The notes under the pieces were generated by a model. The model worked only from the letters and a program-made list of their open reading frames with translations, made no database searches and had not been told where the DNA came from. 64,000 nucleotides of DNA from Roseateles depolymerans (GTDB lineage: Bacteria; Pseudomonadota; Gammaproteobacteria; Burkholderiales; Burkholderiaceae_C), in assembly GCF_003387155.1 (NCBI RefSeq), contig NZ_QUMT01000001.1, positions 1,739,858-1,803,857 of the forward strand. The letters are read 5' to 3'. Positions 29,031 to 50,485 of the stretch are shown one piece after another (within the stretch, counting starts at the first letter, position 1; each line of letters starts with the position of its first letter). The position numbers and the translations under genes are program-made.

Positions 29031-29375
29031 CCTCAAACGGTGGTCGAACCTGCTTTTATCCTACTGCTCGCCGCATATTTCACACCCGCGAACAGGGGAT
29101 CATCGGCTCGATTGAGGGTCGGTAACAGACCCATTTAATTCCTCAAAAGCGTACCTTCTTTAGTGTTTTGTGCCTGGATATCCTGAGTGGGTCGCTGAAC
29201 CGAAAAGCGCTCGATATTCGGGTTTCAGATAATGAAAGAAGGTCTGCAAGCCAGCGCCCCACCGGCCTGACTTGAGCGCCTCGGTTCCGCGCATTCCCCA
29301 AGCTGAGTTGTCCCCCTGGGCCCCTTTGGGCACCAGGCCTGGCCCCGCCGTGGTCGTTTGCCGGAATCCACTTTT

Positions 29376-30140
29376 ATGAACGGTTTGTCATCACCGCTTC
29401 TGACGCAGACGCAGATATCGAGTGCATCCCCGCCGTGGTGGCGGGAGATACTTGAGGATCTGGAATCAAGGTTGTCCGGAGATTCCGGATTCCCCTGCGT
29501 TTTCTCTAAGAACGCCTTCAAGAAGAAACTCATCCGCTTCATATTTGTGCCGGATGCACAAAATGCCGCCATGGTGCACCTGGCGGCAGGATTGAAGCAA
29601 TATGTCAATCTCTCCCGGGACTGGGACGGAAGCCTGGATACGGCGTATCCGCTGGTCGTCGGATTCTCCCGGGACGCCATCGAGGCGGATTCCATCGAGG
29701 CCTATCACGCCTTCGGCTGGCGGGTGCTGCAGGCGCTGCATGCGCTGGACCCGGCCCCGTGGCCGTCCCAGGTCGGCCAAGACCCCAACGCGGCCGACTG
29801 GTCGATGTGCTTCAACGGCATGCCGCTCTTCGTGAACATGAGCCATCCGGCCCACCAGGCGCGCCGGAGCCGGAACCTGGGACGCCACTGCCTCTTCGTG
29901 ATCAACCCACGGGAGCGCTTCGACATCTTCGCGGGCAACACCCCCGGCGGACGTCAGGTCCGCACCAACATCCGCCAGCGCATCGAGCGCTATGACGGCC
30001 AACCGCACGCCCCCCAGCTGGGCTTCTTCGGCGCGGACAGCCGCGAGTGGTGGCAGTACAGCCTGCTCGACCACAACGGCCCGCGCGCCGACCAGTGCCC
30101 CTTCCTCCAACGCTCCTCCACCAGGACGCCCACACCATGA
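29376..30140 (+). CDS. dcsA: DcsA-like heme-dependent L-arginine N-hydroxylase (YqcI/YcgG family)
   Basis: This 254-residue cytosolic protein belongs to the YqcI/YcgG family (PF08892), which includes DcsA of D-cycloserine biosynthesis and GntA of guanitoxin biosynthesis, both heme-dependent guanidino-N-hydroxylases. Family blocks are FPCVFSKNAFKKK (residues 39-51), CFNGMPLFVN (145-154), HPAHQARRSRNLG (157-169), VINPRERFD, TNIRQRIERYDG and LGFFGADSREWWQY. Predicted role: L-Arg to N-omega-hydroxy-L-Arg. Its stop overlaps the arginase-like gene by four bases (ATGA), and that gene would use this product directly. An in-frame TTG at 29358 is a possible alternative start; neither start has a strong ribosome site. 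Confidence 0.88.
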   Translation: MNGLSSPLLTQTQISSASPPWWREILEDLESRLSGDSGFPCVFSKNAFKKKLIRFIFVPDAQNAAMVHLAAGLKQYVNLSRDWDGSLDTAYPLVVGFSRDAIEADSIEAYHAFGWRVLQALHALDPAPWPSQVGQDPNAADWSMCFNGMPLFVNMSHPAHQARRSRNLGRHCLFVINPRERFDIFAGNTPGGRQVRTNIRQRIERYDGQPHAPQLGFFGADSREWWQYSLLDHNGPRADQCPFLQRSSTRTPTP

Positions 30141-30955
30141 TCGACCTCATCGTTTCCCAAGGCCGCGTGGCCGACCGCGCCCCGCGCATGATCGAAGGTG
30201 CCGCCCGCACGGCGCAGGCGCTGCAGCACCGCTACGGCTTCGGCATCCACGCCATCGGCAGGCCCCAACCCCATGCGAGCGACGATTGGCGAGACAGCCT
30301 GCCGCAAGCCCGTGACACGCTGCTGGGCCTTCGCGACGCCATCGACCGCAGCCTGCGCACCCAGCCGCTGACGGTGTTGCTGTCCAACACCTGCTCGGCC
30401 AGTCTGGCGAGCCTGCCGCTGGTGGCGCAGACGCATCCGGATGCCGTGGTGCTGTGGATCGACGCGCATGGCGACTTCAACACGCCGGACACCACCGCCT
30501 CCGGGTATCTCGGCGGCATGGTGCTGGCGGGAGCCTGCGGGCTGTGGGACAGCGGCCATGGCGCCGGCCTGCAGCCGGGTCAGGTCGTGCTGGTGGGGGC
30601 GCGCGACATCGACGCGCCGGAACAGGCCCTGCTCACGCAGGCCGGCGTGCGCATCCTGCCGCCCGCGCAGGTCACGCCACAGGCCGTGCTGGCGGCCATT
30701 GGCAATGCGCCGGTCTGGGTGCACATCGATTGGGACGTGCTCGAGCCCGGCCATCTGCCCGCGGATTACGTGGTGCCGAATGGCCTGTATCCGGCGCAGA
30801 TCCGCGCGTTGTTCGAGGCGATTCCCGCGGCGCAGTTGCGCGGCATCGAACTGGCCGAGTTCAACGCATCGCTCGATGAGACGGTCAATGCAGCGGCGTT
30901 GGACGTGATCCTCGGCATCGTCGCGCCCGTCTTCGACCGCCTGGTGCGGCGCTAG
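30137..30955 (+). CDS. dcsB: DcsB-like N-omega-hydroxy-L-arginine hydrolase (arginase superfamily)
   Basis: A 272-residue arginase-fold dimanganese hydrolase predicted to cleave N-omega-hydroxy-L-Arg to hydroxyurea and L-ornithine. Metal-site motifs are DAHGDFN (Asp109, His111, Asp113) and HIDWDVLEPG (Asp198, Asp200). The canonical arginase GGDHS motif is missing; the aligned place reads SNTCSAS with Cys86 where arginases have a metal-ligand His. A cysteine at this place is, as far as I recall, a distinguishing feature of S. lavendulae DcsB, so a plain arginase or agmatinase is unlikely. It is translationally coupled to dcsA. Confidence 0.9.
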   Translation: MIDLIVSQGRVADRAPRMIEGAARTAQALQHRYGFGIHAIGRPQPHASDDWRDSLPQARDTLLGLRDAIDRSLRTQPLTVLLSNTCSASLASLPLVAQTHPDAVVLWIDAHGDFNTPDTTASGYLGGMVLAGACGLWDSGHGAGLQPGQVVLVGARDIDAPEQALLTQAGVRILPPAQVTPQAVLAAIGNAPVWVHIDWDVLEPGHLPADYVVPNGLYPAQIRALFEAIPAAQLRGIELAEFNASLDETVNAAALDVILGIVAPVFDRLVRR

Positions 30956-30997
30956 GGCCTGCTCCACAGCGCCTGCATCGACCCGCTACCGGGACAC

Positions 30998-31053
30998 ATT
31001 CATTCATCCATCCATCCATCGATTCATGGGTCCATTGATCCATTGATCCATCC
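30998..31053. repeat. Short CATC/ATTCATC-type repeats in the dcsB-dcsD gap
   Basis: The 134-base gap between dcsB and dcsD contains ATTCATTC, then CATC units (CATCCATCCATCCATC) and ATTGATCC units (TCCATTGATCCATTGATCC). This is the position that dcsC occupies in the S. lavendulae order. No coding remnant is visible. Confidence 0.85.
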
Positions 31054-31089
31054 GCCTGCGCACGCCGCAGGCTCATCCAGGAAACCACC

Positions 31090-32274
31090 ATGCCGCTCTA
31101 CAACAGCATCCTCGACACCATCGGTCGCACTCCCATCGTCAAGCTGCATCGCATCGCACCGTCGCATGTGAGCCTGTATGTGAAGGTCGAATCTTTCAAC
31201 CCCGGCGGCTCGGTGAAAGACCGCCTCGCCCTGGCGGTCGTGCTGGACGCCGAAGCCAAGGGCCAACTCAAGCCCGGCGACACGATCTGCGAATGCACCT
31301 CCGGCAATGTCGGCATTGCGCTGGCCATGGTGGCAGCGGCGCGCGGCTACCGCTTCGTGGCGGTGATGTCGGACTCCTATTCCATCGAACGTCGCAAGCT
31401 CATCCGCGCCTATGGCGGCAAGGTGCTGCTGTTCCCCGCGGCGCTGGGCAGCAGCGGGGGCAACCGCATCGCCGATGCGCTCGCGGCCCGGCACGGCTGG
31501 TTCCGGGCGCGCCAGTTCGACAACCCGGCCAACCCCGCCTATCACCGGGAGACCACGGCCGCTGAAATCCTCAGCGACTTCGCCGGCAAGCGGCTGGATT
31601 ACTTCGTCACCGGCTTTGGCACCACCGGCACGCTGACGGGGGTGGGGCAGATGCTCAAGCGGGCCCGTCCGCAGGTGCGCGTGGTGGCCGCCGAGCCGGC
31701 CAATGCAGCGGTGCTGGCAGGGCAGCCGTGGCAGGTGCACCAGATCCAGGGCTGGGCGCCCAACTTTGTGCCGAGCGTGCTGGACCCGAGCGTCATCGAC
31801 GAGCTGCGGTCCATCGACGAAGTCATCGGCCGGGACACGTCGCGCCGGCTGGCGGCGGAGGAGGGCATCTTCGTGGGTCTCTCCGCCGGCGCCACGGTGG
31901 CGACAGCGCTGGATGTGGCCCGGGAAGCCCCGGCCGGCACGGTGCTGCTGGCCATGCTGCCGGACACCGGCGAGCGCTACCTCTCGACGTTCCTGCTCGA
32001 GGGCGTGAATGAAGGCTCGGACGACGACTGGCTGGACAGCCTCGGAGGGCCGTTGGTCTCCCAGTTGGCCCCGTCCCTTGCCTTCACCGACATCTTCACC
32101 GAGCTTCCCATCGACACCGCCACTGAGGCCGCAACCACCGCCGCGACCGATGCATCCACTGGCGCCGTTACCGACGCCGCCACCGATGCATCCACTGGCG
32201 CCGTTACCGACGCTGCCACCGATGCCGCGACCGCCGCCGCTACCGACGCCGCCATCCACGCCCAACCCGCCTGA
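31090..32274 (+). CDS. dcsD: DcsD-like O-ureido-L-serine synthase (cysteine synthase family)
   Basis: A PLP-dependent beta-substitution enzyme of the cysteine synthase (CysK/CysM) family, 394 residues. The PLP lysine is Lys43 in GGSVKDR. The substrate loop is TSGNVGIALA, the phosphate loop is GFGTTGTLTGVG, and the PLP ring-nitrogen region is GLSAGAT. By context it joins hydroxyurea to O-acetyl-L-serine to give O-ureido-L-serine; some cysteine synthase activity is likely. The catalytic core ends near residue 330. The remaining about 60 residues form a Thr/Ala/Asp-rich tail (TDASTGAVTDAA repeated) encoded by 36-bp direct repeats. AGGAAA precedes the ATG. Confidence 0.88.
   Translation: MPLYNSILDTIGRTPIVKLHRIAPSHVSLYVKVESFNPGGSVKDRLALAVVLDAEAKGQLKPGDTICECTSGNVGIALAMVAAARGYRFVAVMSDSYSIERRKLIRAYGGKVLLFPAALGSSGGNRIADALAARHGWFRARQFDNPANPAYHRETTAAEILSDFAGKRLDYFVTGFGTTGTLTGVGQMLKRARPQVRVVAAEPANAAVLAGQPWQVHQIQGWAPNFVPSVLDPSVIDELRSIDEVIGRDTSRRLAAEEGIFVGLSAGATVATALDVAREAPAGTVLLAMLPDTGERYLSTFLLEGVNEGSDDDWLDSLGGPLVSQLAPSLAFTDIFTELPIDTATEAATTAATDASTGAVTDAATDASTGAVTDAATDAATAAATDAAIHAQPA
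32146..32217. repeat. 36-bp direct repeats encoding the DcsD tail
   Basis: Two tandem 36-bp copies (32146-32181 and 32182-32217) differ at one base (GCCGCC versus GCTGCC near the end) and are followed by a degenerate third copy. The unit is a multiple of three, so copy-number change keeps the frame. Confidence 0.9.
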
Positions 32275-32295
32275 CCCCTCAACCAGGAGTTGCCC

Positions 32296-33732
32296 ATGAT
32301 GGAATTCATTCCTCCAGCCACGCGCTTCGTGGCGCTTCCCGACGGATTCAAGCTCAAGCGGGGCGGAACCCTCTCCGGCGCCCGGATGGCCTATGAGACG
32401 GTGGGCCGGCTTAACGCCGCGCGCAGCAATGCCGTGCTCATCCTCACCGGGCTGTCTCCGGACGCCCATGTCTGCGCCCATGAGCAACACCCGGCCCCCG
32501 GCTGGTGGGAGGGCATGGTCGGCCACGGCAAGCCTGTCGATACGGACCGGTGGTTCGTGGTCTGCGTCAATTCGCTGGGCAGTTGCAAGGGTTCGACCGG
32601 ACCGGCGTCGGTCGACCCGGCCACTGGCCGCTGCTACGGCCCGGACTTCCCTGCGCTGTCCATCGAGGACCTGGCCGATGCCGCCGCTCATGTCGTGCGG
32701 GCCCTGGGCATCGAGCAACTGGCCGTGGTGGTGGGCGCGTCCATGGGCGGGATGACCGCGCTGTCTCTGGTGGCGCGGCATCCGGGGCTGGCGCGGCACA
32801 TGATCAACCTCTCCGGCGCGGTCCATGCGCAGCCGTTCGCGATTGCGCTGCGTGCGCTGCAGCGGGAGATGATCCAGTCGGACCCGCAGTGGCAGGAAGG
32901 CCGGTATGACGCCGCCAGCGTGCCGATCAGCGGCATGGTCGCGGCCCGCAAGCTGGGGCTGCTCAGCTACCGGGCGCCGGACGATTGGTCCCGGCGCTTT
33001 GGGCGGGAGCGGCTGGATGCTGCACTGGCATCGGCTGCAGGCATGCCTGCCATGGACTTTGCGGTGGAGGGGTACCTGGCCTGCCATGCACAGCGGTTCG
33101 TACGCGCGTTCGATCCCAATGCTTATCTGGCGCTGAGCCGTGCCATCGACCGATTCGACCTGGGCGACGAGGCCGCGGGCGATGCCGATGCCGCGCTACG
33201 ACGGCTGCAGCTGGACCGTGCGCTGGTCATGGGCGTGGACAGTGACTTCCTGTTCCCCTTGTCGCAGCAGCGGCAGGTGGCGCAGGGCCTGCAGGAGGGT
33301 GGGGTGGGCGTGACCTATCGGGCGGTGAGCTCGCTCGCCGGCCACGACGCGTTCCTGGCCGATGTGGCGCAATTCGGTCCCCCGATTGCGGCCTTCCTGT
33401 CCGACGTGGCCAGTGGCGCGCGCTCGGCCGAGGCGGCTTCCGATGTGGGGCAGGCCTCATTGACGGCCTCGTCATCGGTCTCGTCGCCGAGCGCCTCACT
33501 CGCGGCATCGACGGCCTCCTCAGTCGCGTCCTCAACGGCCTGCTCAACGGCCATCGCAACGGCCCCGTCAACGGCCTCTTCAACGGCCTCTTCAACGGCC
33601 ATCGCGACGGCCCCATCAATGGCCTCTTCAACGGCCATCGCGCCGGTCCCCTCAATGGCCGCCTCCACCGCCCCCTCCACGGCTTCCTCAACGGCCCCCT
33701 CAATGGCCGCCATCACCGTGACCCCGCTCTGA
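32296..33732 (+). CDS. dcsE: DcsE-like L-serine O-acetyltransferase (MetX-type alpha/beta hydrolase fold)
   Basis: A homoserine O-acetyltransferase-like (MetX) protein predicted from context to acetylate L-serine, supplying O-acetylserine to DcsD. The catalytic triad is visible: Ser149 (GASMGG), Asp317 (DSDFLFP) and His350 (AGHDAF). NSLGSCKGSTGPAS and GPDFPALSIEDL are MetX family blocks. The core ends near residue 372. The last about 105 residues are a low-complexity Ala/Ser/Thr tail (STASSTAIATAPS and similar) from imperfect 9-30 bp repeats, unusual for the family. ATG 32296 has AGGAG six bases upstream; an in-frame TTG at 32290 is less likely. Homoserine specificity cannot be excluded by eye. 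Confidence 0.86.
   Translation: MMEFIPPATRFVALPDGFKLKRGGTLSGARMAYETVGRLNAARSNAVLILTGLSPDAHVCAHEQHPAPGWWEGMVGHGKPVDTDRWFVVCVNSLGSCKGSTGPASVDPATGRCYGPDFPALSIEDLADAAAHVVRALGIEQLAVVVGASMGGMTALSLVARHPGLARHMINLSGAVHAQPFAIALRALQREMIQSDPQWQEGRYDAASVPISGMVAARKLGLLSYRAPDDWSRRFGRERLDAALASAAGMPAMDFAVEGYLACHAQRFVRAFDPNAYLALSRAIDRFDLGDEAAGDADAALRRLQLDRALVMGVDSDFLFPLSQQRQVAQGLQEGGVGVTYRAVSSLAGHDAFLADVAQFGPPIAAFLSDVASGARSAEAASDVGQASLTASSSVSSPSASLAASTASSVASSTACSTAIATAPSTASSTASSTAIATAPSMASSTAIAPVPSMAASTAPSTASSTAPSMAAITVTPL
33500..33712. repeat. Imperfect TCAACGGCC-type repeats encoding the DcsE tail
   Basis: The segment is built from many copies of TCAACGGCC or TCAATGGCC separated by 3-12 bases (for example CTCTTCAACGGCCATCGC). 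Spacings are multiples of three, so they encode a Ser/Thr/Ala tail in frame. Exact boundaries are approximate. Confidence 0.85.
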
Positions 33733-33741
33733 AAGGCTGTC

Positions 33742-34581
33742 ATGTCCGCTCAACCTGTCCCCACCACCGCCGAGCCCAAGGCGGTGCCTCTTCCCGCCAG
33801 CGATGCCGAGGCGGTATCGCCCGGCCCCGCGGCCAGCGCAGCGACACCCAGGCGCGTGGCGCTGGTCACCGGCGCCAATCGCGGCATTGGCCTGGAAATC
33901 TGCCGTCAACTGGCTGCGGAGGGCGTTCGCGTGCTGCTCAGCGGCCGCAGTGCCCCTGCCGTCACCGAAGCCGCCCGGCGCCTCGCCAGCGAAGGCCTGG
34001 ACGTCGAAGCCGTGGTGCTGGATGTGACCGACCCGCGCAGCATCCAGGCGGCGGCGGACGGCATCGGCCATCGCCATGGCCGTCTGGACATCCTGGTGAA
34101 CAACGCCGCCATCCGGGTGGAGCCCTACGGCTGCGGCCCGTCCGCGCAGCCGCTGGCGCTGTGGCACCAGACCTTCGCCACCAACCTCTTCGGCGTGGTG
34201 GCCGTCACCCAGGCCATGCTGCCGTTGCTGCGCCGCTCGCCCGCGGCCCGCATCGTCAACGTGTCCAGCCTGCTGGCGTCATTGGGCACCCACAGCGATC
34301 CGGCGTCCTATGCCTACAGCGACATGTTCAAGTCGCTGCCGGCCTACAGCGCGTCCAAGAGCGCCGTCAACGCCTGGACGGTGCACCTGGCCTACGAACT
34401 GCGCGAGACCGGCATCAAGGTCAACGCCGTGCACCCGGGCTACACCAGGACCGACATGAACGAGGGCGCCGGGGAGCTGGAGCCCGGGCAGGGCGCGCTG
34501 ACCAGCGTGCGCATGGCCCTGCTCGGGCCTGACGGGCCCACCGGCCAATACGTGCACATGGGCCGCCAGATTCCATGGTGA
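33742..34581 (+). CDS. Short-chain dehydrogenase/reductase of the carbonyl reductase type
   Basis: A 279-residue SDR with NAD(P) motif TGANRGIG (residues 43-50), NNAA (120-123), the catalytic Ser in VNVSSLL and Tyr202-x3-Lys206 (AYSASK). A roughly 25-residue insertion between Ser and Tyr (THSDPASYAYSDMFKS) is typical of carbonyl reductase-like SDRs. The first about 37 residues are a Pro/Ala-rich extension. It lies nine bases after dcsE and before dcsG, so it is co-transcribed, yet no known step of D-cycloserine synthesis needs a dehydrogenase. It may tailor the product or supply a precursor; this is open. Confidence 0.85.
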   Translation: MSAQPVPTTAEPKAVPLPASDAEAVSPGPAASAATPRRVALVTGANRGIGLEICRQLAAEGVRVLLSGRSAPAVTEAARRLASEGLDVEAVVLDVTDPRSIQAAADGIGHRHGRLDILVNNAAIRVEPYGCGPSAQPLALWHQTFATNLFGVVAVTQAMLPLLRRSPAARIVNVSSLLASLGTHSDPASYAYSDMFKSLPAYSASKSAVNAWTVHLAYELRETGIKVNAVHPGYTRTDMNEGAGELEPGQGALTSVRMALLGPDGPTGQYVHMGRQIPW

Positions 34582-34659
34582 GGTCTTGGCGCCCAGGGCG
34601 CTGTCGCCTCGCTCAAGGGCCGCTCGGCCCACCCACCTTCATCGTTGTTGCCACGCATC

Positions 34660-35568
34660 ATGAAAACTCTCGCTTTGGTCACCAGTGCCGGCAGCTTGCC
34701 GATCGACGTCGACATGCCGCTGCTGCTCAAGGCCTGCCAGACCGTTGGTCTGCAGGCACAGGTCTGTGATTGGGAAGATCCGCAGGTGCCCTGGCACCGC
34801 TTCGACGGGGCGGTGCTGCGATCGCCCTGGAACTATGTGGAGGACTTGCCGGCCTTCCTGGCCTGGTGCGACCGGGTGGCGCAGCGCACCCGCTTGTTCA
34901 ACCCGCCAGCGGTGTCGCGATGGTCCCTGGACAAGCGCTACCTGGCCGATCTCGCCCGCCACGGGGTGCCGGTCGTGCCCACCGAGTTCCTCGCGCCCGA
35001 CGTGCCCGAGGCAGAGTCCCGGCAGGCGCTGCAGGCGCTGATGGACCGGCATCCTCAATCTGGCGAGGTCGTCATCAAGCCGACCGTCGGCGCCTACTCG
35101 CGGGACGTGCAGCGCTTTGCGCGTGCGGCGGCGCATCTGGCGCATCGCGCCATCGTGCGGCTGCAGCAGCGGGGCTGCCATGTGATGCTGCAGCCCTACC
35201 TCAGCGCCATCGACCAGGACGGCGAAACCAACCTGGCCTTCTTCGACGGCCATTACAGCCACGCCATTCGCAAGAGCGCCATGCTGATGGCCGACGGCAC
35301 GGTGCATGTGCCCACCCAGGACCTGCGCCAGGCCCGTCACGCCGACGCGCGGGAACAGGCCGTTGCCGCTCAGGCGCTGCAGGCCGCGGCCCGCCATCTG
35401 CAACTGCGCGAGCCGCTGCTCTACGCCCGCGTGGACCTGATCCGCGACCCCCAGGGCCAGCCGCGGGTGCTGGAGCTGGAGCTGTGCGAGCCGTCGCTGA
35501 ACCTGCCGTTTTCGGAGGGCAGCGCGCTGCGGTTTGCACAGGCGATCGCGCATCGTGTGGGCGTCTGA
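34660..35568 (+). CDS. dcsG: DcsG-like ATP-grasp cycloserine synthetase
   Basis: A 302-residue ATP-grasp enzyme predicted to cyclise O-ureidoserine to cycloserine with ATP hydrolysis. It begins MKTLALVTSAGSLPIDVDMPLL, and has DGAVLRSPWNYVEDLPAFLAW (quoted in part: VLRSPWNYVED), the ATP-binding strand GEVVIKPTVGAYS and a second nucleotide segment HVMLQPYLSAIDQDGE. The acidic metal site is RVLELELCEPSLNL. Length matches the roughly 300 residues of DcsG. S. lavendulae DcsG acts on the D-isomer. With no racemase nearby, substrate handedness here is uncertain. ATG 34660 is preferred over the in-frame TTG at 34645. Confidence 0.87.
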   Translation: MKTLALVTSAGSLPIDVDMPLLLKACQTVGLQAQVCDWEDPQVPWHRFDGAVLRSPWNYVEDLPAFLAWCDRVAQRTRLFNPPAVSRWSLDKRYLADLARHGVPVVPTEFLAPDVPEAESRQALQALMDRHPQSGEVVIKPTVGAYSRDVQRFARAAAHLAHRAIVRLQQRGCHVMLQPYLSAIDQDGETNLAFFDGHYSHAIRKSAMLMADGTVHVPTQDLRQARHADAREQAVAAQALQAAARHLQLREPLLYARVDLIRDPQGQPRVLELELCEPSLNLPFSEGSALRFAQAIAHRVGV

Positions 35569-36767: not shown

Positions 36768-36827
36768 GGACGCGAATGCTCCCTTGTGGGCCCCTGGGGC
36801 CTGCCTGCATTGCAGGATAGCCACGAC

Positions 36828-36879
36828 ATGGGTACAAACACAGGCACAGTTCCCTTGATCCTGTACCCTCCGTACCCAT
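36828..36879. promoter_or_regulatory. GTACCC half-sites, candidate MocR operator
   Basis: The divergent intergenic region holds ATGGGTAC (36828-36835) facing two direct copies of GTACCC (36863-36868 and 36872-36877, the second in GTACCCAT). The outer arms ATGGGTAC and GTACCCAT form an exact 8-bp inverted repeat, and the two right-hand copies are spaced nine bases apart. MocR/GabR regulators typically bind such combined direct and inverted sites in their own divergent promoters. Confidence 0.6.
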
Positions 36880-36915: not shown

Positions 36916-38307
36916 ATGAATCTTCAGATCCAACGTGACTCCGACATCCCGCTGGCCGACCAGGTGGAGCAAGGCTTGCAGGCCCATATCGGCCGCCGGG
37001 TGTACGCACCGGGCGCCCGTCTGCCGTCCATCCGGAGCCTGGCCACCCACCTGGGCGTGAGCCGCAACACGGTCATCGAGGCCTATGACCGGCTGGTCAC
37101 CCGCGGCCTGGCGCGCTCCCAGCCCGGATCGGGCTACTACGTCGAGGACGGCGCCATGCGCTTCCCGTCGGCGGGCATGTCCAACCCGCGCGATGCGGAG
37201 AGCGTCACCGACGAGCTCTGGCATCTCTTCCGCGAGCAGAACGACACGGTCAAGCTGGGCTGCGGCTGGCTGCCTGACAGCTGGCGCGAGAGCGAGGACA
37301 TGGCCTACGCCATCCGCCAGACCGTGCGCCGGGACCGCAGCGGCCTGTTTGACTACGGCACGCCGCTGGGCAGCCCCAGCCTTCGCAAGGCGCTCAGCCG
37401 CCGGCTCTACAGCATGGACATCGAAGCCCCGGTCAACCAGTTCCTGCTGACCAGCGGCGCCAGCCAGGCCCTGGACCTGCTGGTGCGGCTGCTGCTGCGC
37501 CCGGGCGACACGGTGCTGGTGGAGACGCCGGGCTACTACAACCTCTTTGGGCTGCTCAAGCTGCAGGGCATCCGCATGCTGGGCGTGCCGCGCACCCCCA
37601 ACGGGCCGGATGTGGAGGCGCTGGAGCGATTGCTGGAGACGCATCAGCCCAAGCTGTTCTTCCTCAACGGTGTGTTCCAGAACCCGACCGGCAGCACCAT
37701 CTCGGTGGCGACGGCGCACCGCATCCTGCAACTGGCGGAGCGGCACGATTTCAACATCGTGGAAGACGACATCTATGCGGACTTCCAGACCAGCAGCACA
37801 CCGCGCCTGGCCGCGCTGGACCAGCTCAACCGCGTCATCTACATCGGCAGTTTTTCAAAGAGCCTGTCGTGCTCGCTGCGGGTGGGCTTCGTGGCGGCGG
37901 CGCCGGCGCTCATCAAGCGGCTGGTCGATCTGAAGATGCTGACCAGCATCACCTCCTCACGCTTTGCGGAGGAGGTGCTGGCCGTGATGCTGGAGAACGG
38001 CAGCTACCGCAAGTTGGTGGAGCGGCTGCGGCGCCGGCTGGACCGTCAGCTGGCGCAGGCCAGCCGTGTGCTGACGACGGCCGGCTGGCAGCTGTTCTGC
38101 CGGCCCAGCGGCGGCATGTTCCTGTGGGCGCGCTGGCCCGGCGTGGACGACGCGACCGAGCTGGTCACCAGGGCGGCCGCACGCGGCGTGAGCTTCTCAA
38201 ACGGCTCGGTGTTCACGCCGGACCTGGCGGTGTGCCCGTGGCTGCGAATCAACGTCAGCTACATCGATGATCCGCGGGCCATGGCGTTTCTGACCAAGCC
38301 GATGTGA
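36916..38307 (+). CDS. MocR/GabR-type transcriptional regulator with PLP aminotransferase-like domain
   Basis: A 463-residue chimeric regulator. The GntR-type winged helix (residues about 8-78: LPSIRSLATHLGVSRNTVIEAYDRLV) is joined to a fold-type I aminotransferase-like domain. The PLP lysine is Lys315 (GSFSKSL); VEDDIYAD supplies the pyridine-binding Asp, GASQALDLL the phosphate loop, and the C-terminal Arg is in PWLRINVSY. Such proteins sense ligands that react with PLP. Cycloserine is a classic PLP-reactive inhibitor, so direct product sensing is attractive but inferred. It is divergent from the MFS exporter gene. Confidence 0.9.
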   Translation: MNLQIQRDSDIPLADQVEQGLQAHIGRRVYAPGARLPSIRSLATHLGVSRNTVIEAYDRLVTRGLARSQPGSGYYVEDGAMRFPSAGMSNPRDAESVTDELWHLFREQNDTVKLGCGWLPDSWRESEDMAYAIRQTVRRDRSGLFDYGTPLGSPSLRKALSRRLYSMDIEAPVNQFLLTSGASQALDLLVRLLLRPGDTVLVETPGYYNLFGLLKLQGIRMLGVPRTPNGPDVEALERLLETHQPKLFFLNGVFQNPTGSTISVATAHRILQLAERHDFNIVEDDIYADFQTSSTPRLAALDQLNRVIYIGSFSKSLSCSLRVGFVAAAPALIKRLVDLKMLTSITSSRFAEEVLAVMLENGSYRKLVERLRRRLDRQLAQASRVLTTAGWQLFCRPSGGMFLWARWPGVDDATELVTRAAARGVSFSNGSVFTPDLAVCPWLRINVSYIDDPRAMAFLTKPM

Positions 38308-38347: not shown

Positions 38348-41218
38348 TCAGAACCGGTAGCTGCCGCTCAGGTAAAAGAATCGCCCGCGCGGATCGGTAT
38401 AGCTCGGGTCGTAGCCCGAGATGAAGAAGTAGGCCTGGTTGGAGAACGGCGGCGCGGTGTCGAAGAGGTTCTTGATGCCCGCCCGCAGGGACAGCGCCTT
38501 GGTCGCGTCCCAGCCGCCGGACAGGTCCCACAGCGAATAGGCCTTCACCTTGTTCTTGGCCACCACCGTGCCGGTGTCGGTGTCGATGGCGGAGTTCTGG
38601 TCGGTGTAGCCGCTGTAGAAGGTGTTGGCCAGGTTCAGGCTCCAGTCGCCGCGCGACCAGTCCAGGTTCAGCCGGTGGCGCCAGCGCTGCACCACGCCAT
38701 CGGTGACGAAGCGGCCCAGGTTGCTGATGTAGGGGTCGCCGTCGCCGGTCTGGCGCTTGGAGGTGAGCGTCCAGGTGCCCACCAGCTTGGCCGAGAAACG
38801 GCCCCACTCGTTCGCATTCGAGCGCAGCTGCAGGGTCAGGTCCAGGCCCGAGGCCTTCTCGCGTCCGCGGTTTTCCTTGCGCAGCTCGATGAAGCAGATG
38901 CTGGTGTCGGTGGCGTCGTAGTCGCAGCCGGGCAGGCCTTCGTCCTCGCTGTAGCGGTGCACCAGCGGTTCGTACTTGTCCAGGTTGGACAGGATCACGT
39001 CGTCGCCGATGGTGCTGATGAGGTTGCGCTTCTGGATGTTCCAGTAGTCCACGCCCACGCTGAGGAAGGGCGAGGGGTCGGTCAGCACCCCGATGCTGAA
39101 CTGGCGGGACTTCTCTGGCTTGAGCTTGGCATTGGAGTAGGTGCGTGTTTCCCAGGAGTCCGCGCAGAAGCTCAGGTCGTTGTCGTTCTCGGCCATGCAC
39201 ACCGGGTCCGGCAGGATGGAGGAGAAGGTGACCTTGGTGGGGCGGTACAGCTCGTCCATCGACGGGGCGCGGAAGCCGGTGCCGGCGGAGGCGCGCAGCG
39301 TCAGGTCCGGCATCGGTGTCCAGCGCAGGCCGACCTTGGGATTGGTCGTCGCGCCGATGCGCTGATAGCGGTCATGGCGGATGGAGAACTGCGCCTCCCA
39401 GCCCTTGGCAAACGGCGCCAGCAGCTCGCCGTAGGCGGCCCAGACCTTGCGGGAGTTGTTGGTGAACTGCGCGTCGCCGGGCGAGCCATCACCCAGGATG
39501 TTGTCGGAGATCAGCAGGTCGCTGGCGGCGGAGCTGGAGCGCTCGCGGCGGAACTCGCCCCCCACGGCCACGGCCAGGTCGCCGCCCTCCAGCCGGGTCA
39601 GCGAGCGCGTGATCTTCGCGTCGAGCGAATCCATCACGCCGCGGGCGCGTCGCACCTCTTCATTGATGTTGAGGGACTTCAGCAGCGCCAGGCCTTCCGC
39701 GCTGGAGGGGCCGAAGGGATTCAGCAGACCGTCCGCATAGGCCTGCAGGGTCTGGTCTTCCGGGAAGTAGCCTCGCACGTCCCGATCGGACACGCGGTTG
39801 ACGCTGTGGTTGTAGCCCCAGTCGTAATCCCAGCCACCGACGCTGCCATTCATGCCAACGACCACCCGGCTGCCGGTGCTGGTGAGCTGGCTGGCGCGGT
39901 TGCCGCCTTCGATCATGCGGGTGCGGACCTCGATGGAGCGGTCATCCGGCAGGGCGTCGCCCAGGCCGGTGGCGTCCAGCGCCGGGATCTTGGACACATC
40001 CAGCTCGGCATTGATGCGATTGCTGGTGCCGACGTACCAACTGCGGGCGCGGCTGTAGGCGTATTCAACAAACGCCTGGTGGTTGTCGTTGATCTTGACG
40101 ACGCCGCGGCCCAGGAAGCCTGTTTTTTCCGTCTTGGGATAGAGCTCCAGGTCCCGCATGTAGTCGTAGGTGCAGGCGTCTTCGCCACCAATGCCATTGG
40201 GCAGATACAGCGTGTGGGGCGGCTGGCAGTTGGGCGCACTCAGGTTGATGGTGCGGTTGACGATGGGCTTGCCGTTGATGGTGAAGTTCACCGACTGCAG
40301 GTAGTCCCGCTGGTCGCTGGTGAGGCGGATGTTGCCGGGGTAGGTCACGCCGGAGAGCAGGTGGGGCAGCCGCTCGGGAATCTTCAGGTCGGCAATGAAG
40401 TCGCGCTGCGAGGTGCGCAGGGCGTCGGTGCGCTGGAAGTCCAGCACGCCGAAGAGGTTGAAGCCGTCGCGGGCGACGTCGCCATAACCGGCGGAGACGG
40501 TGCCGGTGCGCTTGCCCGCGCCGCCTTCTCCGGAGAAGCCGCCGTACGCGTCCAGCTGCACGCCCTGGAAGTCCTTGCGGGTGATGAAGTTGACGACGCC
40601 GCCAATGGCGTCGGTGCCGTAGAGGGCGGACGCACCGTCCAGCAGCACCTCCACCCGTTCAATGGCGGCGGCCGGGATGTTGTTGAGGTCCACGCCCTGG
40701 TCGTCACCCGGGGAGGCGAAGTTGGCCATGCGGCGGCCGTTGAGCAGGACCAGGGTGGAGGAGGTGCCCAGGCCGCGCAGGTTGGCCGAGTTCAGGCCCA
40801 TCTGGTCCTTGACGCCGCCGGTGCCGATGCTCACGCCGTCGGTCAGGCCCTTGCTGGCGGCGGAGACGGTGGCCAGCAGTTCGGCGGCGGTGGTCACGCC
40901 GGCCTTGGTGATGTCCTGGCGGGTGATGACCTGCACCGGCAGGGCGCCTTCATCCGCCAGCCGCTTGATGGCCGAGCCGGTCACTTCCACCCGCTCGAGC
41001 TTGCGAGGGGCGGGGTCGCCTTCGGCCGAGGCGCCGGTGGTTTGGGCCAGGACGGTCAATGGCGACAGCAGGGTGAGGCTGACCGTGAGGCCCAGCGCGG
41101 CGGCCAGGCCGTGGGGGCGGGGACCGCGGGCGTTTCGTGGGTGGGAGGGGGCGGCCATCGTGGCCACCGCGTTGCATGCGCCCGAAAGAGGCTCCGGGCG
41201 CGCGAAAATCCTGTTCAT
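38348..41218 (-). CDS. TonB-dependent outer membrane receptor
   Basis: A 956-residue TonB-dependent receptor. An Ala/Leu-rich export signal (GLAAALGLTVSLTLLSPLTVLAQ) follows an unusually long N-terminus; a start at the Met of MAAPSHPRN is possible. The plug has VEVTGSAIKR, LPVQVITRQDI, LRGLGTSSTLVLLNGRRM and IERVEVLLDGASALYGTDAIGGVVNFITRK (quoted in part: DGASALYGTDAIGGVVN). The barrel includes RASAGTGFRAPSMDELY and ends FFYLSGSYRF with terminal Phe. The sequence style is of the general, substrate-undefined type common in Xanthomonas and Caulobacter rather than a clear siderophore receptor. It faces the MocR gene tail to tail; a link to the cluster is not shown. Confidence 0.92.
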   Translation of the reverse strand: MNRIFARPEPLSGACNAVATMAAPSHPRNARGPRPHGLAAALGLTVSLTLLSPLTVLAQTTGASAEGDPAPRKLERVEVTGSAIKRLADEGALPVQVITRQDITKAGVTTAAELLATVSAASKGLTDGVSIGTGGVKDQMGLNSANLRGLGTSSTLVLLNGRRMANFASPGDDQGVDLNNIPAAAIERVEVLLDGASALYGTDAIGGVVNFITRKDFQGVQLDAYGGFSGEGGAGKRTGTVSAGYGDVARDGFNLFGVLDFQRTDALRTSQRDFIADLKIPERLPHLLSGVTYPGNIRLTSDQRDYLQSVNFTINGKPIVNRTINLSAPNCQPPHTLYLPNGIGGEDACTYDYMRDLELYPKTEKTGFLGRGVVKINDNHQAFVEYAYSRARSWYVGTSNRINAELDVSKIPALDATGLGDALPDDRSIEVRTRMIEGGNRASQLTSTGSRVVVGMNGSVGGWDYDWGYNHSVNRVSDRDVRGYFPEDQTLQAYADGLLNPFGPSSAEGLALLKSLNINEEVRRARGVMDSLDAKITRSLTRLEGGDLAVAVGGEFRRERSSSAASDLLISDNILGDGSPGDAQFTNNSRKVWAAYGELLAPFAKGWEAQFSIRHDRYQRIGATTNPKVGLRWTPMPDLTLRASAGTGFRAPSMDELYRPTKVTFSSILPDPVCMAENDNDLSFCADSWETRTYSNAKLKPEKSRQFSIGVLTDPSPFLSVGVDYWNIQKRNLISTIGDDVILSNLDKYEPLVHRYSEDEGLPGCDYDATDTSICFIELRKENRGREKASGLDLTLQLRSNANEWGRFSAKLVGTWTLTSKRQTGDGDPYISNLGRFVTDGVVQRWRHRLNLDWSRGDWSLNLANTFYSGYTDQNSAIDTDTGTVVAKNKVKAYSLWDLSGGWDATKALSLRAGIKNLFDTAPPFSNQAYFFISGYDPSYTDPRGRFFYLSGSYRF

Positions 41219-41773: not shown

Positions 41774-44587
41774 TCAGCGGGCGTGCGTTTCGCTGTCCTG
41801 CCATCGCCGTAGTTGCGCAATGGAACCCGTGATCCGGCGCTCCCAGGCGCGTGCGCCTTGGCGAGTCGCCATCTCCAGCGCCTTGGACAGGAGTCGGTCG
41901 GCTTCCCTGACCGGGTCTGTGTCCAACGCCAGGGCGGCTGCAGGGCATGCGGCAGAGCGAGCAGCAGGCCCAGAGGCTTCGTGCGCACGCTGAAGCAGTT
42001 TGTCCGCCTTGACGCGCAGCAGTTCCGCCGTGCACCAGGTCTCGGGACCGGTTTCGACCGTGGCAAGGACCGCCTCGGTCGCCAGGCTGGGACACAGGGT
42101 GGCCAGCACGTCGGCCCGGCTGCCGGTTTGTTCGCACAGTGCCAACCATTCCGGCGCCGAGGTGGGGTCCTTGACGCTTTCGCACCAGTGCAGCGCGAGT
42201 TCAAAGAGCTTGGCCCAGTCGTTCCAGAAGTGAAACGAGTGGCGCTGCGCGAAGGAAGACAGTTGGGCGATGTTGGCTCGCGCCGTGGCCCAGTCCTCGG
42301 CGTAGAGGGCGATCGGACAGGCCGCCATCGTCAAGGCCTGGACGGTCGAGATGGCATGCCCAAAGGCCAGGCTGACCTCGACGGCCCGGCGGGCCACTTC
42401 CTGGGCCTGGGCGGTGTGCCCGGTGATCCAGAGCGAGCGGGCCAGGTGTGTGAGCGATGCAGTCTGATGCTCGATCTGGAGCTGGGAGTCGAGAAAGAAG
42501 TGAATGCCCTCGGGGGGCGACTCCGCCAGCGCGCGGGCGATGGCCAGGGATTCGTGCTGCCGCCCGACCTGGAACAAGGCAATGCCTCGCAGCCGCTGGC
42601 GCAACAGGTCGCACTGGGCATAGGACGCGGACTCGACGACCTCGTCGAAGGCCTGCGCAACGCTCAAGGTGTCTGCATAACGTCCCAGGATGTGGTGCCA
42701 ACCGAATTCCCCGTACAGGCTCAGCAGCTGGAATCGGGTGTTGCCCTCCGCCCTGGCAGCCGCGCCTGCGCGTCGATAGGCGTCCAGCGTCTCCGGCGTC
42801 GGCCCGGCGGCGGTGGTCTGACATTGCCCCAGGGTCAGGTACAGGGCCATCTCCAGGGCGCGTGCGTCGGGAAGACCGGCCACGTGCTGCAGCGCCTGCT
42901 GGAGGTAGGGCACGCATTCAGCGCTGCGGGACAGTTGCACCCAGATCACGCCGGTGGCGGCGGCCAGCCGGACGCCGGCTTCGGTGGTGGCGGGGTCATT
43001 GAAGGCCCAGAGCAGGGCGGCGCGAATGTCTTCAATCAGCGCGCCATGGACCACGTTCCATTGAATCGACGCCAGCCCGCCTGAATCCCGCGCAAAGGCG
43101 TCGAAGAGTTGCTGGCATGCGGCGACATGCCGCAGGGCCACCGCATGGCTCTCCCCGCTCTCGGCGAGCTTGTCGGCGGCGTAGGCGCGGGTGGTGTCCA
43201 GCAGCCGAAGCCCGACCGCGCCGCCGATGCTGTCGGTGACCAGCAGCGACTTGGCGATCAGCCCCTCCAGGCCATCGAAGACTTCGTCCGCACGCACAGG
43301 CGCAAAGGCACTGACCGTGGCAGCGGCCTCAAAGGTGAAGCGGCTGCGGAACACCGAGAGTCGCCTCAGGATGGCCCGTTCGCTGTCGGAGAGGGTGCGG
43401 TAACTCCAGTCCAGCGTCGCCTGCAGGGTATGGTGGCGCTGTGGCGACGTGCGGCGGCCCTGGCTCAGCAGCGACAGCCGCTCGTCCAGCAGCCCCAGCA
43501 GCCCACGCACCCCGAAGGTGCTGGTCCGCGCGGCGGCAATCTCCAGCGCCAGCGGATTGCCGTCCAGTTTTCGGCACAGCTGCACCAGCGCCGGCATGTC
43601 GTCCTGCGCCAGTGGCGGTCCACCGGCTGCTGCGGATCGCTCCATGAAAAGCGCGAGCGCCGAGTAGCGCGGGGCGGACGCCAGATCCGGCGTTGGCGTG
43701 TCCGGAAGGTCCAGCGGGGGCAGCCGAACCACCCATTCGCCGCGGATGCGCAGCGGTTCCCGGCTGGTCGCCAGCAGCAGGAGGCCGGGCGCCGCCGTCA
43801 GAAGGCGTTCGGCCAGCAGGGCCGCCGCTTCCACGACGCACTCGCAGCCATCGAGCACCATCAACATCCGGGTGGGGGCCAGGTAGGCCATCAGGCTGGC
43901 CGTTGGATCGTGGGCGGACACCCGCACCCCGAGGGCCTGCGCCAGGGTGCTGGGCAGCAGTTGGGGATCGCTGAGCGCGGTGAGATCGACGAATCGCACG
44001 CCATCCAGACCGCTGCCGGCCAGGCGCCGCGCCGCCTCCAGCCCCACCGTGGTCTTTCCGATGCCGCCTGGCCCCACGATGGTGACGAGTCGGCGCTGCG
44101 GAAAGCCATCCACCAGCGCCTGGATAACCGGTTCGCGCCCGATGGAGGAGGTGATGCGGATGGGCAGGTAGTCGTCCGCGCTGCTCTGGGGCGCGGGTTC
44201 AGCCCTGCCGCTTTCCCAGGACGGGGCCGGGCTGGATGACGAAGGCGCCATGCCCAGCAGGCGGTAGCCCTTGCCAGGCTGGTTCTCGATCCAGGGCGAG
44301 CCGTCGTCCTGGCGACCCAGGGTCTTGCGCAACCCGGCCATGTGGACCCGCAGGCTGCCCGGTTCGACCACTGCGTCCGGCCACAGACGCGCCATCAAGG
44401 CTTCGGTTGGCACCAACGCGCCCGAGGCCTGCGCCAGGGTCAGCAGCATCTCGAAGGCGCGGCCTCCCAACTTCACCGGGACACCGTCCCGCGTCAAGCT
44501 GCGGCTCTCCGCCACTAGGACAAAGGGACCGAAGCAGATCGGCTGGGTCCGCGACGGGGGGGCTGCTCGGCGTCGATCAGAGGTCAT
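41774..44587 (-). CDS. Winged-helix regulator with NB-ARC/STAND-like ATPase and helical repeats
   Basis: A 937-residue one-component regulator. Residues about 17-110 form an OmpR/PhoB-type winged helix (ICFGPFVLVAESRSLTRDGV, KLGGRAFEMLLTLAQ, WPDAVVEPGSLRVHMAGLRKTLG). Residues about 145-470 form a STAND/NB-ARC-type ATPase with Walker A GPGGIGKT (172-179), Walker B MLMVLDGCE and sensor LLATSREPLRIRGEWVVRLPPL (quoted in part: LLATSREPLRI). The remaining about 450 residues are a helical TPR-like array. Such proteins switch on ligand binding and ATP loading. It is divergent from a paralogue at 44740, with promoters in the short gap. Confidence 0.88.
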   Translation of the reverse strand: MTSDRRRAAPPSRTQPICFGPFVLVAESRSLTRDGVPVKLGGRAFEMLLTLAQASGALVPTEALMARLWPDAVVEPGSLRVHMAGLRKTLGRQDDGSPWIENQPGKGYRLLGMAPSSSSPAPSWESGRAEPAPQSSADDYLPIRITSSIGREPVIQALVDGFPQRRLVTIVGPGGIGKTTVGLEAARRLAGSGLDGVRFVDLTALSDPQLLPSTLAQALGVRVSAHDPTASLMAYLAPTRMLMVLDGCECVVEAAALLAERLLTAAPGLLLLATSREPLRIRGEWVVRLPPLDLPDTPTPDLASAPRYSALALFMERSAAAGGPPLAQDDMPALVQLCRKLDGNPLALEIAAARTSTFGVRGLLGLLDERLSLLSQGRRTSPQRHHTLQATLDWSYRTLSDSERAILRRLSVFRSRFTFEAAATVSAFAPVRADEVFDGLEGLIAKSLLVTDSIGGAVGLRLLDTTRAYAADKLAESGESHAVALRHVAACQQLFDAFARDSGGLASIQWNVVHGALIEDIRAALLWAFNDPATTEAGVRLAAATGVIWVQLSRSAECVPYLQQALQHVAGLPDARALEMALYLTLGQCQTTAAGPTPETLDAYRRAGAAARAEGNTRFQLLSLYGEFGWHHILGRYADTLSVAQAFDEVVESASYAQCDLLRQRLRGIALFQVGRQHESLAIARALAESPPEGIHFFLDSQLQIEHQTASLTHLARSLWITGHTAQAQEVARRAVEVSLAFGHAISTVQALTMAACPIALYAEDWATARANIAQLSSFAQRHSFHFWNDWAKLFELALHWCESVKDPTSAPEWLALCEQTGSRADVLATLCPSLATEAVLATVETGPETWCTAELLRVKADKLLQRAHEASGPAARSAACPAAALALDTDPVREADRLLSKALEMATRQGARAWERRITGSIAQLRRWQDSETHAR

Positions 44588-44739
44588 GAGAGCTGGTTGA
44601 TGTTTGAGTATTCAGCCGTCGCGCTGAAAAAAACCACCAGCCTCAGCAGTTCATGAAGACGTGGGCCGTGCTGTGTATGCTGCTTGCGATGCTACCATCC
44701 GCCGCCGTTCCGGACGGAGGCGGCAGGGGGAAGTCCGAC

Positions 44740-47583: not shown

Positions 47584-47586
47584 CGT

Positions 47587-47934
47587 TCATCCGTGGGGCG
47601 ACGGGCGTTGCGTCCGGACGGCTGCGACAAAGCAATATCCCCGGCCCGGCACGTTGACGATGTAGCGCTGGTCATTCTGGCCATCGCCGAGCACTGCGCG
47701 CAGCGCGGCGACCTGGGTACGCAGGGTGGCCTCCTCCACCGCCTGGCAGCCCCAGACATAGGCCATGAGGGCCTGCTTGCTCACCACCTCCCCGGACCGC
47801 TCCACCAGGGCGATGAGCAGGTCCATCGTCCGGCCGCCCAATCGGACCTCACGTTCGCCGTCGAAGAGCAGCCGCTCCGAGCGGTGCAGCGTGAACGGGC
47901 CGAAGGAGAGGGCCTGCTGGATATAGGGGCGCAT
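47587..47934 (-). CDS. Stand-alone winged-helix DNA-binding protein
   Basis: A 115-residue protein consisting only of an OmpR-type winged helix (LSFGPFTLHRSERLLFDGER, RLGGRTMDLLIALVERSGEVVSKQALMAYVW, RYIVNVPGRGYCFVA in parts). It closely resembles the N-terminal domain of the adjacent 947-residue regulator (both have VSKxALMAY and VPGRGYCFVA or VSGRGYCFVA) but lacks receiver and ATPase domains. It is the last gene of the efflux operon, 12 bases after the outer-membrane component. It may autoregulate the operon or compete with the large paralogues for sites. Confidence 0.85.
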   Translation of the reverse strand: MRPYIQQALSFGPFTLHRSERLLFDGEREVRLGGRTMDLLIALVERSGEVVSKQALMAYVWGCQAVEEATLRTQVAALRAVLGDGQNDQRYIVNVPGRGYCFVAAVRTQRPSPHG

Positions 47935-47946
47935 GGGGGCGCATGT

Positions 47947-49356
47947 TCAGGGCGAGGCGCGCCGCGTGGACTCGGGTCCGGAGGGGGCCGCATCCTGGCT
48001 CCATCCGCCGCCCAGTGCGCGGTAGACCGAGATCTCCGCGACCAAGGTCTCCGCATGGAGTTGCAGGATGCTCTGCTGCACCGCAAAGAGGCTGCGCTCC
48101 GCCAGGAGTTGATCGAGATAGGAGGCATAACCCTCGGCATACCGCCGGCTGGCGATCTTGTACGACCGCTCCAGCGCCGCGCCCTGCAGTTCTGCTTGCG
48201 CGAGTTGCTCCTGGCTCTTGGAGAGCACGGTCAACTGGGTCTCGACCTCCGAGAGGGAGGTGAGAACGACTTTCTGATAGGTGAGCAACGCCTCGTCGCG
48301 GCGGGCTGATGAGGCGCTGGCCAGTGCCCTCAATTGGCCGCCATTGAAGAGAGGGGCCAGGATGCTGCCGCCCACGGACCAGATCGAGAACGGACCCTGC
48401 CGCAGGATGCTCGAGCTGACCTGGCCGTAGGACGCCGCCAGGTTGAGCGAGGGCAGCAGGCGCGCCCGCGCGGCGGCCCACTGGGCATCGGCCGCCGCGA
48501 CCTGGCTTTCGGCCTGGGCGATGTCCGGGCGCCGGCGCAGCAGTTCGGAGGGAATGCCGATGTCCGGCAAGGGCTGCAGCGACACCTCGAGAAGGGGCAG
48601 CCCCCGCTCGATCGATCCTTCGGTGCGTCCCAGCATCACCCTGAGCACCTGTTCCTGGCGTTTGCGGGCGAGTTCCAGCTGCGGAATCGACTGCGTCGTG
48701 GCGCGCCACTCTGCCTCGGACTGGGCCGTCTCGAGGGCGCTTGCGTAGCCCATCCGCTGCCGCTGGCTGTTGAGCGTCCATGATCGTTCCCGCGATTCGG
48801 CGGTGCGGCGCGCGAGGTCCAGTTGCGCGTCGAGGGCCCGGAGCGTGACGTAGCCACTGGCCACACTGGCGGCCACGCTCAGCGCGACCGCGTCCCGGGC
48901 CTGCCGCATGGCGTCCTCGCTGCGTTCAGCGGCGGCGGTGAGGTCGTGCACGCGGCCCCACAGGTCCACTTCATACGAGGCCCGCACGTCGACTTCGTTG
49001 TTGTGGGAGAGGTAGGGATGCAGGCTGACGCTGCTTACCTGCCGGGAGCGGTTGGCGCCATCGGTCAGCACCACCTGCGGAAGCTCGGAGCCCCGCTGCG
49101 CGGCGGTCATTGCCCGGGCTTCCTGGAGCCTGGCTGTGGCCAGGCGCAGGTCGAAGTTGTTCTTCAGCGCTTCATCCACCAGGGCATCAAGGGTGGGGTC
49201 GTGAAACCCGCGCCACCATTGCGACGCCACCGCGAGGCGGCCGCCCTCCACCTGCCAAGCAGCGGGTAACTGAACGGACGGCGCGGGGGCCGGTGCCGGT
49301 GTGGCGCAGGCCTGAAGGATCAGCGCCAGTCCGGCGCAAGCCAGCCGCACCCTCAC
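47947..49356 (-). CDS. Efflux outer membrane lipoprotein, NodT/OprM family
   Basis: A 469-residue outer membrane factor. The signal peptide ends in a lipobox (LILQAC, acylated Cys at about 17). Family blocks are WWRGFHDPTLDALVDEALKNNFDLRLATARLQEARA (in parts: LDALVDEALKNNFDLRLA), YEVDLWGRV, RRRPDIAQAESQVAAADA and a second repeat ending YLDQLLAERSLF and RALGGGW. Trimers form the exit duct of a tripartite pump with the adjacent HlyD and MFS proteins. Its GTG start overlaps the HlyD stop by four bases (GTGA). Confidence 0.92.
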   Translation of the reverse strand: MRVRLACAGLALILQACATPAPAPAPSVQLPAAWQVEGGRLAVASQWWRGFHDPTLDALVDEALKNNFDLRLATARLQEARAMTAAQRGSELPQVVLTDGANRSRQVSSVSLHPYLSHNNEVDVRASYEVDLWGRVHDLTAAAERSEDAMRQARDAVALSVAASVASGYVTLRALDAQLDLARRTAESRERSWTLNSQRQRMGYASALETAQSEAEWRATTQSIPQLELARKRQEQVLRVMLGRTEGSIERGLPLLEVSLQPLPDIGIPSELLRRRPDIAQAESQVAAADAQWAAARARLLPSLNLAASYGQVSSSILRQGPFSIWSVGGSILAPLFNGGQLRALASASSARRDEALLTYQKVVLTSLSEVETQLTVLSKSQEQLAQAELQGAALERSYKIASRRYAEGYASYLDQLLAERSLFAVQQSILQLHAETLVAEISVYRALGGGWSQDAAPSGPESTRRASP

Positions 49357-50432: not shown

Positions 50433-50485
50433 TGGGGCAAGGTGGGTTGGAACGGTCAAGGGGGCAGGGCGCTGTCATGACGCTG

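Follow-up and report, generated by a model that had tools for sequence, protein, structure and literature searches.

The closest described system to the operon considered here is the D-cycloserine cluster of Streptomyces lavendulae, which we take to run from dcsA to dcsJ in that order, and which presumably holds its own D-Ala-D-Ala ligase (DcsI), expected to give self-protection against D-cycloserine. The known product of the dcs pathway, D-cycloserine, arises via the O-ureidoserine racemase DcsC, and L-cycloserine is known mainly as a laboratory inhibitor of enzymes dependent on pyridoxal phosphate (PLP). The pathway is described as a conversion of arginine via N-hydroxy-arginine to hydroxyurea and of serine to O-acetylserine, followed by condensation and ring closure (PMC10214352). 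A 64-kb stretch of DNA from Roseateles depolymerans (hereafter the window), on contig C1 of a 5.66 Mb genome, carries six + strand genes that form one compact operon in the order dcsA-dcsB-dcsD-dcsE-SDR-dcsG, the fifth encoding a short-chain dehydrogenase/reductase (SDR). No dcsC was found in it. We consider, with confidence that is evenly balanced, that this is a functional dcs-type operon without the racemase step, and that it probably yields L-cycloserine or a closely related compound of L configuration.

Identity of the dcs genes

The five dcs genes of the operon are all open reading frames on the + strand within positions 29376 to 35568, and are arranged as follows.

29376-30140, + strand: dcsA, PF08892 (YqcI/YcgG) heme-type N-hydroxylase, proposed to convert arginine to N-hydroxy-arginine
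30137-30955, + strand: dcsB, N-hydroxy-arginine amidinohydrolase, which would release hydroxyurea; overlaps dcsA by ATGA
30956-31089, no strand: dcsB-dcsD gap of 134 bp, the position of dcsC in three actinobacterial clusters, here without dcsC
31090-32274, + strand: dcsD, predicted O-ureido-L-serine synthase, with a repetitive, species-specific C-terminal tail
32296-33732, + strand: dcsE, predicted L-serine O-acetyltransferase of MetX fold, ending in a repetitive tail
33742-34581, + strand: SDR oxidoreductase gene of 840 bp (PF00106), between dcsE and dcsG
34660-35568, + strand: dcsG, predicted ATP-grasp cycloserine synthetase

The Dcs proteins were compared with all PDB sequences and with Pfam and NCBIfam profiles. 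The best PDB match of DcsB was DcsB (6lug, 393 bits, against 74 bits for the best arginase), that of DcsD was O-ureido-L-serine synthase (3x43, 572 bits, against 289 for the best cysteine synthase, CysK), and that of DcsE was 3vvl (507 bits, next match 228 bits), an entry titled homoserine O-acetyltransferase which we take to be the S. lavendulae DcsE. DcsG had a sole PDB match (6jil, 368 bits) and scored 474 bits against the NCBIfam equivalog for D-cycloserine synthetase, NF058666, which has a cut-off of 360. Judged by score, DcsB, DcsD, DcsE and DcsG match their Streptomyces Dcs counterparts far better than their housekeeping relatives. Together with NF058666, these scores lend good support to the cycloserine-type cluster that an earlier sequence-only reading had proposed for this betaproteobacterium, and their wide margins (572 against 289 and 507 against 228) answer the question it had raised, whether DcsD and DcsE are ordinary CysK and MetX proteins, in the negative. 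Both proteins also exceed the general NCBIfam cut-offs TIGR01139 (cysK) and PRK00175 (metX), so that automatic annotation may misname them. The same reading suspected that standard miners may miss the cluster, but annotation does pick it up: NCBIfam names DcsG, and UniRef or NCBI names already exist for a protein of Roseateles terrae (O-ureido-D-serine cyclo-ligase) and one of Xenorhabdus stockiae (DcsG).

DcsA was tentatively assigned on the basis of family and synteny. It scored 205 bits with PF08892, its best PDB match was weak (the hydroxylase AglA, 87 bits), and it is 55-61% identical to the dcsA product of seven actinobacterial clusters, with a constant place beside DcsB. The ATGA overlap reported earlier is real, dcsB starting at 30137 and dcsA ending at 30140.

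All six genes are open in each of the five Roseateles and keep their order there, with 67-95% identity to the window, and the loci of R. terrae and Roseateles sp. YR242 match the window in gene order. The sequence-only reading thus spotted the operon correctly, and all five dcs genes it listed are present and open; they are not, however, consecutive in the Streptomyces order as it had stated, since dcsC is missing and the SDR gene intervenes between dcsE and dcsG. It reported neither the absence of dcsC nor the conserved SDR gene, nor a linked pair of transporter and regulator genes described below.

The C-terminal tails of DcsD and DcsE (32108-32262 and 33494-33718) are long and of low complexity, built from 12-, 24-, 36- and 48-bp repeats. 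They vary between the five Roseateles (the DcsE of L061 terminates in a His-rich run), and the corresponding ends are short in the seven actinobacterial loci.

Absence of the racemase gene dcsC

Twelve clusters were read in context: the window, four further Roseateles-type clusters (L059, also listed as L010, from a pond metagenome-assembled genome named Rubrivivax; L060, also L012; L061; and L062, also L011), the Actinomadura cluster L013, four clusters from one Streptomyces-type genus sample (L071-L074), and L064 and L095. L064, L071, L073 and L095 are tentatively named Actinorugispora, two Streptomyces and Marinitenerispora. The dcsB and dcsD genes of L013 are separated by a DapF-like gene, identified as dcsC: the best PDB match of its product is the O-ureido-serine racemase 7vdy with 456 bits, whereas the best DapF reaches 205. 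While dcsC was present in three clusters (L013, L072 and L074), it was not found in the other nine, namely all five of Roseateles, including the window, and L064, L071, L073 and L095; these loci span 18-20 kb each, and 64 kb in the case of the window. The gap between dcsB and dcsD measures 48-280 bp in the clusters without dcsC, against 846-907 bp in those with it.

Whole-genome searches of the five Roseateles returned nothing nearer to DcsC than a single DapF-like gene per genome (41-43% identity), and those of the four actinobacterial hosts without dcsC returned weak DapF-type matches only (best per genome 59-84 bits), one host, G733, having two weak DapF-like genes. As far as these searches go, which were aimed at DcsC homologues and not at PLP-type racemases, the racemase gene has not simply moved elsewhere in the genome. 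Among 20 neighbouring predicted proteins, none of the 18 with a Pfam match at 1e-8 is a racemase.

A degenerate tandem repeat of CATC type occupies 30997-31053 in the dcsB-dcsD junction, where dcsC would be. With regard to the racemase itself, epimerases of Luteimonas and Pseudoxanthomonas (P0293, P0320, P0329 and P0359) are 61-67% identical to DcsC, much nearer than the actinobacterial DapF-type matches (35-38%), and DcsC may derive from a xanthomonad DapF. A plasmid search with DcsC gave DapF-like matches only, all below 60%.

D-Ala-D-Ala ligase genes in clusters with and without dcsC

If the clusters without dcsC make L-cycloserine, an in-cluster D-Ala-D-Ala ligase should not be needed. The ligase family was searched in 18 genomes, covering eight of the nine hosts without dcsC (all but G1409, the host of L095). 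An in-cluster ligase gene was present in two of the three clusters with dcsC and in none of the nine without (Fisher p 0.045, from few and related clusters). This second ligase gene adjoins dcsG in L072 and lies on the opposite strand beyond the EamA gene in L074, and none of the nine dcsC-less loci showed a ligase by tblastn. A single ligase gene, outside the cluster, was found in two Streptomyces-type hosts without dcsC and in the five Roseateles with the operon, and likewise a single one in three Roseateles of the same genus without the operon. In the source genome this one gene lies on contig C5, with the dcs operon on C1 and no ligase gene in the window.

The MFS/MocR pair and a shared operator-like element

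Beyond dcsG lie genes for a major facilitator superfamily (MFS) transporter and a MocR-type regulator, transcribed divergently from one another. The MFS gene is present in the window and in all four other Roseateles clusters, in which the regulator is 91-98% identical to that of the window. Alignment of the five Roseateles MFS/MocR promoters with the five regions upstream of dcsA yielded invariant blocks common to both.

35577 to about 36767, - strand: MFS transporter gene, proposed exporter, convergent with dcsG; start inferred from conservation
36916-38307, + strand: MocR-type regulator gene (GntR plus PLP aminotransferase fold), divergent from the MFS gene
29151-29185, + strand: operator-like element GTACC-N23-TATCCTG, upstream of dcsA
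36813-36835, - strand: operator-like element GTACC-N11-TATCCTG, in the promoter region between the divergent MFS and MocR genes

The spacers of the two elements differ by 12 bp, and each spacing is the same in all five Roseateles; beside the MFS/MocR element stands an inverted repeat, ATGGGTAC...GTACCCAT, at 36828-36879. The pattern GTACC-N-TATCCTG occurs at exactly two sites in the window and at none in 100 shuffles, although it was picked after the alignment had been seen. It matches 12 of 119 loci, all from the five Roseateles genomes with the operon, and each of the four other full Roseateles clusters holds two sites of the same two lengths. The conservation of the element is real, though a shuffle expectation of zero is not a clean test. 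We propose that the MocR protein may control both the dcs operon and the exporter. A PLP enzyme has been found to react with either enantiomer of cycloserine (PMC6927412), and on chemical grounds it is plausible that MocR senses the product.

The SDR gene

All 12 clusters carry an SDR gene between dcsE and dcsG, and its product is 67-83% identical to that of the window in the 11 others. The window's protein retains TGxxxGxG and YxxxK, the named motifs of the SDR family, as read from its sequence. The lists of DcsG, DcsC and SDR relatives cover up to 120 matches each, those of DcsG and DcsC clustered at 90% identity. Among 71 listed DcsG relatives whose contigs measure at least 12 kb, at least 40 match the contig of a listed SDR relative in size, which is a lower bound, and at most 57 are without a size-matched DcsC contig, an upper bound among the matches listed.

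Proposed pathway and alternative explanations

The operon would work like a D-cycloserine cluster as far as O-ureido-L-serine. In the proposed scheme DcsA would hydroxylate L-arginine, and DcsB would cleave the resulting N-hydroxy-arginine to ornithine and hydroxyurea. DcsE would acetylate L-serine, DcsD would join hydroxyurea and O-acetyl-L-serine to give O-ureido-L-serine, and DcsG would close the ring with ATP. Without DcsC the ring should stay L-configured. The product would then be exported by the adjacent MFS protein and the MocR regulator would control this; the product may also react directly with the PLP-binding domain of MocR. The complete path seen by the sequence-only reading holds up to O-ureido-L-serine, with the cyclase in addition, but does not extend to D-cycloserine. 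As a defining feature, DcsC, was looked for and is absent, the operon is better not classed among D-cycloserine clusters. An L-configured cycloserine is about as likely as not, and likelier than D-cycloserine made through another racemase. A wider form of this proposal, to which we give slightly less than even weight, is that the dcsC-less clusters of Roseateles and Actinobacteria form a widespread class of their own, devoted to making L-cycloserine, in which the PLP-binding MocR protein senses the product by the same chemistry.

Several observations weigh against an L-configured product. The Actinomadura cluster L013 has dcsC but no ligase gene in its 17.3-kb locus; a second ligase gene elsewhere in that genome was considered as protection and rejected, as it groups with one of the Actinorugispora ligases and not with the in-cluster type. 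Actinorugispora itself lacks dcsC, yet its genome contains three ligase genes, all of them outside the cluster. L072 and L074 share one clade of the DcsG tree, and the p value given above therefore overstates independence; moreover, export alone can also give self-protection. S. lavendulae DcsG is said to act on O-ureido-D-serine, and no column of the DcsG alignment separates rows with dcsC from rows without it.

This last result comes from 86 cluster-type DcsG rows, with dcsC labels taken from contigs of equal size and used solely for the tree and column tests; two rows (P0076 and P0077) near-identical to L072, which carries dcsC, were relabelled for the column and pair tests but not for the first tree count. 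Mutual information over the 86 rows, and independent-pair tests of eight positions, gave no diagnostic column for stereospecificity. Of the seven positions with a result (all but 59), the best, 58, agrees in about 1.8 of six independent tree pairs and none in more than about two, so that DcsG gives no sign of a switched stereospecificity. Residue 58 (34831-34833), which adjoins an invariant R-x-P-W motif, is Thr in 17 of 22 rows with dcsC and 4 of 64 without, and as a candidate stereo-determinant it is only a hint, not a significant one. On the tree of 86 rows the dcsC label changes 12-13 times, seven of these forced by starred branches, or 10 times after the two rows are relabelled; among the 13 best-known rows, which are those of the 12 clusters plus S. 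lavendulae with a label based on its DcsC entry, two changes suffice.

These points leave room for D-cycloserine as the product, if another racemase of the cell (DapF, an alanine racemase or an amino-acid racemase) epimerised O-ureidoserine, or if DcsG pulled the D form from a slow equilibrium. DcsG is conserved and, by sequence, indistinguishable between the two kinds of cluster, and each of the five Roseateles genomes does hold its DapF-like gene, as does G733 its two weak ones. Nevertheless, dcsC is likewise absent from four actinobacteria, in which the DapF-like proteins bear little resemblance to DcsC, the nine loci concerned also lack a ligase gene, and the Pfam-matched neighbours of the operon include no racemase (PLP racemases elsewhere were not searched). 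We regard this route as rather unlikely. The constant SDR gene, with the size-matched contigs of many DcsG relatives, could instead point to a different end product, for which the SDR would carry out an additional modification on the way from O-ureido-L-serine or cycloserine. However, the gene is equally present in the three clusters with dcsC and so does not mark a different product, and no further tailoring gene was seen inside the operon, which makes such a product improbable. It is more improbable still that the genes serve arginine or sulfur metabolism, or are the decaying remnant of a cluster that lost dcsC. The general cysK and metX models do accept DcsD and DcsE, DcsD reportedly makes some cysteine in vitro, and repeats invade the operon; yet all six genes remain open in five Roseateles at the identities given above, the promoter element is kept, and a second arginase-family gene elsewhere in the genome scores 254 bits with Pfam against 81 for dcsB.

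The L-cycloserine reading, if true, would provide a genetically encoded, enzymatic route to this compound. It would also explain the differing self-protection genes, and the stereochemistry of DcsG would be directly testable with natural pairs of clusters. Even if it fails, the SDR gene is a constant and unexplained part of the 12 dcs clusters read, and such clusters reach well outside Streptomyces. Among the papers listed by a literature search, none dealt with the biosynthesis of L-cycloserine or with a cycloserine cluster of Roseateles. An old report is said to describe L-cycloserine from a Gram-negative bacterium, and for this reason no claim to a first natural source is made.

Distribution and genomic surroundings

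DcsG proteins above the cut-off were found in 5 of 16 genomes of the genus; a sample of 250 genomes from the family gave 2, again of this genus. The phylum sample gave 2 of 398, the window and one lone DcsG relative. Among Actinobacteria, 2 of 394 genomes in the class of Actinomadura exceeded it, as did 3 of 249 genomes from the order to which Actinorugispora belongs (two previously found), 5 of 323 in the Streptomyces-type genus sample and 2 of 229 in a repeat of that sample, both previously found. One of the five, L075, is without dcsA, dcsB, dcsD and dcsE alongside and has a distant SDR (34%) nearby; with L065, L079, L080 and L081, which on reading proved to lack the same four genes, it forms a set of lone DcsG relatives that were excluded from the cluster counts. 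DcsG-like ATP-grasp proteins are common in Actinobacteria (185 of 394 genomes at E <=0.001), and those of L031-L058, L065, L075 and L079-L081 are nearly all below the DcsG cut-off.

Close DcsG proteins also occur in Xenorhabdus and Pseudomonas huanghezhanensis, and DcsC relatives of Pseudomonas poae and Burkholderia lata stand on contigs size-matched to SDR relatives. Three Rhizobiaceae plasmids (L116, L117 and L119) encode DcsB-like arginases 56-60% identical to that of the window, but their three annotated regions contain no further dcs genes; these were rejected as clusters, and a DcsB match alone does not, on this comparison, mean cycloserine. Viral contigs gave two weak DcsB-like loci.

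The G+C content is 0.684 in the dcs cluster and 0.675 in the 17-kb surroundings, and a foreign origin by composition was rejected as the two show no contrast. After the MocR gene follows one further feature.

38348-41218, - strand: TonB-receptor-like gene, recognised by eye only

Further on, the region 41774-52357 encodes three proteins that share a Trans_reg_C DNA-binding domain, two of them longer than 900 aa and the third of 115 aa, and an OEP/HlyD/MFS efflux set adjoins them.

Comparison with known systems

DcsA belongs to the same family as AglA and the guanitoxin protein GntA, which are YqcI/YcgG heme hydroxylases, but its similarity to them is low (87 bits with AglA, and 57 bits against a cut-off of 145 with GntA). 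The orthologues of DcsB, DcsD, DcsE and DcsG of the S. lavendulae D-cycloserine cluster are also found here, together with a DcsA-family protein, and the relative order of the dcs genes is that of the Streptomyces clusters read in context. In contrast to S. lavendulae, the Roseateles clusters are without dcsC, an in-cluster ligase and an EamA-type exporter, and have an MFS exporter and a MocR regulator instead; the EamA-type exporter, which lies near dcsG in seven actinobacterial loci, had no match in the window or in the four other Roseateles loci. The clusters L064, L071, L073 and L095 resemble Roseateles in the order A-B-D-E-SDR-G and in having neither dcsC nor an in-cluster ligase, but differ from it in carrying an EamA-type transporter rather than an MFS one, with proteins 55-84% identical to those of the window.

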